Part shown: in pieces, positions 60,849 through 64,000 of the stretch
Layout: each line of letters begins with the position of its first letter
Position numbering within the stretch: position 1 is the first letter of the stretch
Assembly (NCBI RefSeq): GCF_003594885.1
Contig: NZ_QZEZ01000003.1
Span: forward strand, 1-64,000
DNA length: 64,000 nt
Source of the DNA: Vallicoccus soli
GTDB lineage: Bacteria; Actinomycetota; Actinomycetes; Motilibacterales; Motilibacteraceae
Reading direction: 5' to 3'
Translations under genes and position numbers: made by a program
The notes under the pieces: model-generated
What the model was told of the DNA's origin: nothing
The model's input: only the letters and a program-made list of their open reading frames with translations
Database searches by the model: none

Positions 60849-62321
<1,473 letters not shown>

Positions 62322-62658
62322 GAACAACCTCTCGACGAACGGGCGACGGGGCGAGGGCTCCGGCGGCCCGCGGGGATGACCCGCGGGGACGTCCGGGGCG
62401 CACGGCCCGGCTGGCAGCGGTCCCCTGCAGCCAGCATGCCCCGGGGACCGGGGCAGGGGCGAGCGCAGGCAACATCCGATTCTGACACGCCGCAGCGGCG
62501 GTGGGCGCCCGCCGAGCGCGTGGCGGCACCCGGACGGGGGCGCGGGGCGGGGTCTCGACCGGCCCCCGACCGTCCCTGTACCGGTCCTTTGCCCGCGGTA
62601 CCGGTCCTCGGCCCGCGCCGCCGGCCCCGGCGCGCTCGCGGGCCGGGCGCGCCGCCCG
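62322..62658. other. Promoter and leader region of the primary sigma factor gene
   Basis: The 337 bp hold no supported gene. They contain the 20-bp tandem repeat at 62578-62617 and a hairpin TGCCCCGG/CCGGGGCA with a 3-base loop (62437-62455). The minus strand near 62490-62470 reads GTCAGAATCGGATGTTG, a lower-GC stretch that may contain the -10 and -35 boxes, but I cannot fix them. Confidence 0.55.
62578..62617. repeat. 20-bp tandem repeat, two copies
   Basis: GTACCGGTCCTTTGCCCGCG at 62578-62597 is followed directly by a copy at 62598-62617 that differs at two positions (TT to CG). Each begins with the palindromic ACCGGT core. It lies about 42 bp beyond the usp stop and 260 bp upstream of sigA. 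Confidence 0.85.
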
Positions 62659-63063
62659 CTAGTCCTCCTCGGCCTTCACCGCCAGGACGGGGCACGGGGC
62701 GTCGAGCAGGATGCGCTGGGCGTTGCTGCCGAGGATGAGCTTGCCGACCGGGCTGCGCCGGCGCAGGCCGATGACGATGAAGTCCGCCGACTCCTCCTCG
62801 GCCACGGCGATGAGGTCCTCGGCCGGCTCGAGGCCGCGGACGAGCTGGCGCACCTCGTGCTCGACGCCGGCGGCGGCGAGCTCCTCGCCGACGCGGGCCA
62901 GCTCCGCCTCCGAGCGCGCGTTCTCCTCCGCGTCGAGGTCGCGCCCGCCGCGGTGCGAGTTGAGGACGACGAGCTTCGTCCGGCGCAGCCGCGCCTCCTC
63001 GGCCGCGCGGCGCAGGGCGGCGCGCCCCTCGGCCTTGGGCACGTAGCCCACCACGATCGTCAT
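62659..63063 (-). CDS. Universal stress protein (UspA family)
   Basis: The 134-residue single-domain UspA protein has [17 protein letters not shown] at the N-terminus and the ATP-binding motif G-x2-G-x9-GS in [20 protein letters not shown] (about 100-119), then [11 protein letters not shown]. It probably binds ATP and is involved in stress or dormancy survival. ATG at 63063 has GAGGAGGAG upstream. It is divergent from the CYTH gene 183 bp away, and a PHO-box-like direct repeat lies between, 113 bp from its start. The frame extends upstream but is not coding. Confidence 0.94.
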
Positions 63064-63175
63064 CCCCGGCTCCTCCTCCGCCTCGCTGCGTCGGGCCCCC
63101 GCGGGCGGCGGGGGCGGCACGGACGCTACTGCACCCCCGGCGTGCCCGCCGCTCCCGCGCGTGCAGCCGACCCGA

Positions 63176-63193
63176 GGTGAACAGCAGGTGAAC
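63176..63193. promoter_or_regulatory. PHO-box-like direct repeat
   Basis: On the minus strand GTTCACCTGCTGTTCACC contains two perfect GTTCACC units with an 11-bp period, which matches the PhoP direct-repeat unit known in Streptomyces. It lies 54 bp upstream of the CYTH gene and 113 bp upstream of the usp gene, and could act on either. Confidence 0.6.
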
Positions 63194-63246
63194 GCCCGGG
63201 TACGGGCGCGTGGCGTCGGACGGCTCCGGTGGGGCACCATGGGCCC

Positions 63247-64000
63247 ATGCCGCGCCGCACCACCAGCCCCAGCAGCACCGGGACGGGCCCCGCGGGCTCC
63301 CCGACCGGTCGCACCGCCGCCGTGCCCACCAGCTCCTACGAGGTGGAGCGCACGTACGCCCTCGCCCCCGACGCCCCGCTGCCCGACCTGGCCGGCGCCG
63401 GCGAGGTGGCCGCGGTCGGTGCGGTGAGCACCCACCGGCTCGACGCGACGTACTGGGACACCGCCGACCTGCGCCTCGCCGCCCGCGGGGTGCGCCTGCG
63501 CCGGCGCACGGGCGGCACGGACGCCGGCTGGCACGTGAAGCTGCCCGACGGCAGCGGCACCACGGAGGTGCATCTCCCGCCGGGCCGGTCGGGGTCGGTC
63601 CCCCGGCCGCTGGCCTCCCTCGTGGCGGCCCTGGTCCGCGACGCCGAGCTCGTGCCCGTGGCGCGGCTGCGCACGCGGCGCACCGAGCACGCGCTGGTGG
63701 ACGCCGGGGGGACGGTGCTCGCCCTCGTGGCGGACGACGACGTGCAGGGCGAGGCGTACCCCCGGGGGGACGACGGCGGGGACGGCGCCGGCAGCGCTGC
63801 GGTCCTCGAGCACTGGCGGGAGGTCGAGGTCGAGCTCGCCCCCGACGCGGACGGGCGCGGCACCGCCGTGCTCGACGCCGTGCAGGAGCGGCTGCTCGCC
63901 GCGGGCGCGGAGGCGGCGGAGCACCCGTCCAAGGTCGGGCGCGTCCTGGGGACCACCGGCGCGTCCCCGTGGCCCGGCCGGGCGCCCCGCCCGCGGCCCA
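63247..64000 (+). CDS. CYTH-domain protein, likely CYTH-CHAD (3' end outside window)
   Basis: The gene starts with ATG at 63247 and stays open to the right edge (251 codons). A 25-residue Ser/Thr/Gly-rich start precedes the CYTH domain, which begins SSYEVERTYALAPDAPLP; the canonical ExExK start is EVERT here, so the Lys is not conserved. LRLAARGVRLRRRTGGTDAG, WHVKLPDGSG, HWREVEVELAPD and EHPSKVGRVLG fit the tunnel-fold strands. CYTH proteins bind and hydrolyse triphosphates or polyphosphate, and actinobacterial ones usually continue into a CHAD polyphosphate-binding domain, which would lie outside the window. A PHO-box-like repeat upstream fits that role. Confidence 0.88.
   Translation, partial: MPRRTTSPSSTGTGPAGSPTGRTAAVPTSSYEVERTYALAPDAPLPDLAGAGEVAAVGAVSTHRLDATYWDTADLRLAARGVRLRRRTGGTDAGWHVKLPDGSGTTEVHLPPGRSGSVPRPLASLVAALVRDAELVPVARLRTRRTEHALVDAGGTVLALVADDDVQGEAYPRGDDGGDGAGSAAVLEHWREVEVELAPDADGRGTAVLDAVQERLLAAGAEAAEHPSKVGRVLGTTGASPWPGRAPRPRP

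Follow-up and report, generated by a model that had tools for sequence, protein, structure and literature searches.

A PHO box upstream of an unlinked CYTH-CHAD gene of Vallicoccus soli suggests phosphate control of a polyphosphate-binding protein

The region between a CYTH-CHAD gene and a divergent universal stress gene of Vallicoccus soli contains a direct repeat (63172-63193 of the window, the whole 64-kb stretch of DNA analysed here) that is very probably a real PHO box, as judged by every available sequence test. On balance, we favor control of the CYTH-CHAD gene by PhoP through this box. In the proposed mechanism, phosphate starvation would lead PhoR to phosphorylate PhoP, a PhoP dimer would bind the two units of the box head to tail, and the CYTH-CHAD gene, which begins 53 bp from the box, would then be transcribed at a different level, most likely a higher one. 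A polyphosphate-binding protein (phosin) would thus be made when the polyphosphate store must be drawn on, and phosphate supply would probably govern how the cell manages its phosphate store.

Table 1. Box, flanking genes and promoter-like hexamers, in window coordinates.
Feature	Position	Strand	Basis
Direct repeat unit 1, GTTCACCTGCT	63183..63193	-	Perfect match to the 7-nt PhoP core GTTCACC (PMC6988585, PMC4415409)
Direct repeat unit 2, GTTCACCTCGG	63172..63182	-	Exact 11-bp register with unit 1
TACGGG, weak -10-like hexamer, 7 bp past the box toward CYTH-CHAD	63201..63206	+	Read from sequence; speculative
CYTH-CHAD gene, 541 aa, likely target	63247..64000, on to contig position 64872	+	CHAD PF05235 5.6e-64, CYTH PF01928 7.3e-9
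Universal stress protein gene, 134 aa, divergent, alternative target	62659..63063	-	Usp PF00582 4.5e-22
TAGCGT, -10-like hexamer conserved upstream of the universal stress gene, 43 bp past the box	63123..63128	-	Alignment of five upstream regions; promoter role inferred

The + strand reads GGTGAAC-AGCA-GGTGAAC at 63176-63193, which puts the GTTCACC units (GTTCACCTGCT and GTTCACCTCGG) on the minus strand, exactly 11 bp apart; the spacing is the one given in the original prediction. What it missed is that the consensus strand of the box points to the universal stress gene and not to the CYTH gene. With 11-nt units that each carry a perfect PhoP core, the repeat extends over 63172-63193. The 4.04-Mb genome contains no second exact copy of the pair. 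GGTGAAC itself is frequent in the window (11 occurrences vs 3.3 in dinucleotide shuffles), and by our own arithmetic, which uses this observed, higher rate and not the shuffle rate, about 0.06 exact pairs are expected by chance per genome and about 0.001 per 64 kb, the expectation outside genes being below the genome-wide figure. Scored with a weight matrix built from the boxes of the family, this site among them, the box reaches the maximum of 26.5 bits, and the next best pair in the window reaches 12.1. A potential hairpin after the box (63193-63208) was not beyond shuffles (z -0.7).

The genome carries phoU, phoR and phoP side by side; absence of phoR-phoP, which was to count against the original prediction, is thus not the case. 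Furthermore, boxes built from this GTTCACC unit are found at classical phosphate targets of the genome. The pstS promoter contains GTTCAGGCCCC GTTCACCTGCG, then 11 bp of other sequence, then CTTCACCTGGC; a phoX-type gene, named from its sequence without a family model, is preceded by CGTCACCCCCT GTTCACCGGCC GGACACCGGTC TAGGGT; and a further box lies between phoU and phoRP. The repeat therefore has two of the properties of a Streptomyces-type PHO box, namely at least two direct units with the GTTCACC core at an 11-bp period, and a cognate phoR-phoP pair in a genome that uses the same unit at classical targets.

When one mismatch was allowed, the pair gave 20 matches across five family genomes vs 0 for a reversed control pattern. 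Four were exact, namely three pstS promoters and the 63176-63193 site, and the one-mismatch pairs mostly precede pstS, pitH2-type, PPK2, phoX, phospholipase, acid phosphatase and 5'-nucleotidase genes (names read from the sequences except where tested). Class-wide, 197 genomes yielded 102 exact pairs vs 5 for the reversed control, i.e. about 5% of the count. Their commonest target is pstS, which 38 of them face by BLAST; another 5 face phoU and 5 face pit or phoX genes, and six further genes have a pstS-type Pfam domain.

Translation of the gene downstream of the box starts at the ATG at 63247, 53 bp from the box, and the gene overruns the end of the window; the original prediction had missed this extent too. 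Both Pfam domains are present in its product, which bears out the original reading of a CYTH protein of the CHAD-fused type. That it encodes a polyphosphate enzyme, as then supposed, is doubtful. The ExExK signature of CYTH triphosphatases reads EVERT here (residues 32-36 of the protein), and its Lys is kept in 91/99 of the proteins in which the motif was found. In contrast, the CHAD domain has the conserved His and basic residues of a phosin, with H286, H438 and many Arg/Lys invariant, and CHAD is a polyphosphate-binding module (PMC6537752). Because of the EVERT sequence and of the binding role of CHAD, polyphosphate binding appears to be a safer guess than catalysis for this protein. The Lys of the signature is likewise missing from the Cellulomonas and Nocardiopsis CYTH-CHAD copies. 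A sigma-70 scan of the region returned no promoter on either strand; the lack of a clear promoter for CYTH-CHAD counts against control of this gene by the box, as does the direction of the consensus strand.

The history of this gene differs from that of its counterparts in the family. In four family relatives, CYTH-CHAD directly follows ppk, precedes nudix and lies near pst, an order equal to the ppk-pptA-nudix arrangement of Streptomyces (PMC8003754, PMC7866108). In Vallicoccus soli, ppk runs straight into nudix with no CYTH-CHAD between them (contig C1, locus L186, 3405-6551), and the only CYTH-CHAD gene of the genome lies on another contig (C3), flanked by the universal stress gene and a dinB-like gene. 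In a tree it fell among unlinked CYTH-CHAD genes, outside the ppk-linked clade, and an AU test rejected its grouping with the ppk-linked copies of the four relatives (p 3.3e-15). Together, these two results rule out a translocation of the ppk-linked gene to a new promoter; the sequence data indicate instead that the family gene was replaced by a differently descended copy. No PHO box was found before ppk in the five family genomes, where the best scores with the same matrix ranged from -0.4 to 8.2 bits.

Pairs resembling the PHO box are more frequent than in controls upstream of CYTH-CHAD genes apart from ppk in other actinobacteria. Among 72 such genes (non-redundant, not classed as near ppk, Vallicoccus soli excluded), seven pairs of at least 13 bits were found at 11-bp spacing vs 0-2 at each of the wrong spacings (8-10 and 12-14), and none was found at this threshold upstream of the 24 CYTH-CHAD genes classed as near ppk. 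The best box, in R. jostii, is GTTCATTGCCTGTTCACCTAGGCT and abuts a -10-like TAGGCT. However, convincing boxes are confined to a minority of the unlinked genes, the orientation is mixed, and of the 102 class-wide exact pairs the one studied here is the only one beside a CYTH-CHAD gene. Some of the seven may also serve neighbors, as in Modestobacter, or arise by chance. The proposed comparison of orthologues thus gave a divided answer, since the pairs do recur upstream of unlinked genes, but in a minority, and the copies in the family relatives are ppk-linked and not orthologous. In Modestobacter (two loci, about 2957-2985), three PHO-like units with an 11-bp period overlap the region of the CYTH-CHAD start site and face a divergent endonuclease/phosphatase-type gene; for both reasons these boxes were set aside as proof for CYTH-CHAD.

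PhoP control of a CHAD gene has a precedent. The ppk-pptA(CHAD)-nudix operon of S. lividans is activated by PhoP, with expression 20-fold lower in a phoP mutant (PMC8003754), so the suggestion that such control was not described is wrong for this class of genes. The two systems would share a CHAD (phosin) gene under PhoR/PhoP, a link to polyphosphate and a response to phosphate limitation, which is predicted in our case. They differ in that the S. lividans gene is second in a ppk-led operon, whereas the Vallicoccus soli gene is unlinked, belongs to another clade and has its own reversed box, while ppk runs into nudix and lacks a box. What is new is a stand-alone, differently descended CYTH-CHAD gene with a strong reversed box of its own, unlike the ppk-linked gene of the family. 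Starvation control as originally proposed is consistent with the PHO box, phoR-phoP, the CYTH-CHAD gene and the recurring pairs, but the enzymatic role attached to it is not well founded. If correct, our reading would add an unlinked, differently descended CYTH-CHAD gene to the CHAD phosins under PhoP, until now represented by the ppk operon of Streptomyces, and suggests that phosphate control of polyphosphate-binding proteins is kept or regained even after gene replacement. According to a published survey, a CHAD gene seldom comes after ppk outside Streptomyces (PMC8003754); the loci examined here add several actinobacterial families with ppk followed by CYTH-CHAD.

The competing readings bear on whether the box acts at all, and on which gene. 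A chance repeat, or a site that is bound with no regulatory effect, is improbable. In its favor, about 0.06 exact pairs per genome are expected at the observed GGTGAAC rate, some class-wide exact boxes have no obvious phosphate gene beside them, and confirmed PHO boxes with no phosphate response have been reported in S. coelicolor (PMC4415409). However, the box is intergenic, perfect and next to a gene for a polyphosphate-binding protein, and the reversed control reached only a small fraction of the class-wide count. It is more improbable still that the real user is another regulator reading 11-bp GTTCA-type repeats, such as an AfsR-like protein: in Streptomyces, AfsR does compete with PhoP for several PHO boxes (PMC6988585), but the unit here matches the PhoP consensus and is identical to that found at pstS and phoX in the same genome. 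A more serious contender, although we still consider it unlikely, is that the box drives the universal stress gene, either by itself or along with CYTH-CHAD. GTTCACC lies on the coding strand of that gene, as it does at pstS and phoX, and the box is some 110 bp upstream of its ATG, a distance in the range seen for many forward targets, so that the sharing first suggested is allowed by orientation. Yet the box is absent upstream of the orthologues in all four relatives (72-76% identity), which speaks against sharing, and the -10-like TAGCGT of this gene, kept in all five aligned genomes, is 43 bp away from the box, whereas at pstS and phoX a -10-like hexamer lies within about 5 bp. No TANNNT stands close to the box on the strand of the universal stress gene, and the Usp family is not among the Pfam matches listed (25 families per table) for genes flanking the class-wide exact boxes. 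A gene for a principal-type sigma-70 factor is located close to the universal stress gene (window 60849-62327), and the relatives have a PAS/phosphatase-like gene interposed between these two genes.

With CYTH-CHAD as the preferred target, the direction of the response would depend on how a reversed box works. Like Streptomyces PHO boxes (PMC6988585, PMC4415409), the repeat consists of two 11-nt units with a perfect 7-nt core each, which is the minimal PhoP operator, but it is reversed relative to its likely target and no -10-like hexamer adjoins it on the box strand. At the S. coelicolor pitH2 promoter (PMC7866108) and at other actinobacterial pit genes, a PHO box likewise stands at most about 130 bp upstream of a gene for phosphate handling. 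In the Streptomyces-like family the pitH2 boxes are forward (four loci), whereas those of pitH2-type genes in the other families examined are reversed (six genomes from four families), like the box at CYTH-CHAD. Four pap-pit operons, in four genomes, also have reversed boxes, as does a gene for a PPK2-type polyphosphate kinase in one relative (G004; locus L173, about 1501-1518). These three sets of genes would fit an alternative in which PhoP binds the box but represses CYTH-CHAD, with reversed boxes marking genes turned down in starvation, which could make sense for low-affinity uptake and for the making of polyphosphate. We lean toward activation, since pptA, the CHAD gene of S. lividans, is activated by PhoP (PMC8003754), and we regard repression as unlikely but a real alternative. 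The pitH2 gene is also PhoP-activated in Streptomyces (PMC7866108), but its box is forward there and therefore no guide to the effect of a reversed one. Regions between phoU and phoRP also contain a box that is reversed relative to phoRP, which further argues against repression as the meaning of this orientation. Rather doubtful is a general orientation code in actinobacteria outside Streptomyces, in which forward boxes would activate scavenging (pstS, phoX, phosphatases), reversed boxes would act oppositely on low-affinity uptake and storage (pit, pap-pit, PPK2, CYTH-CHAD), and the replacement CYTH-CHAD gene would have been wired into the latter side. No box was found at the Vallicoccus soli pit gene or at the better-matching of its two PPK2 genes. 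The distribution of orientations points to a testable rule for boxes at pit and storage genes.
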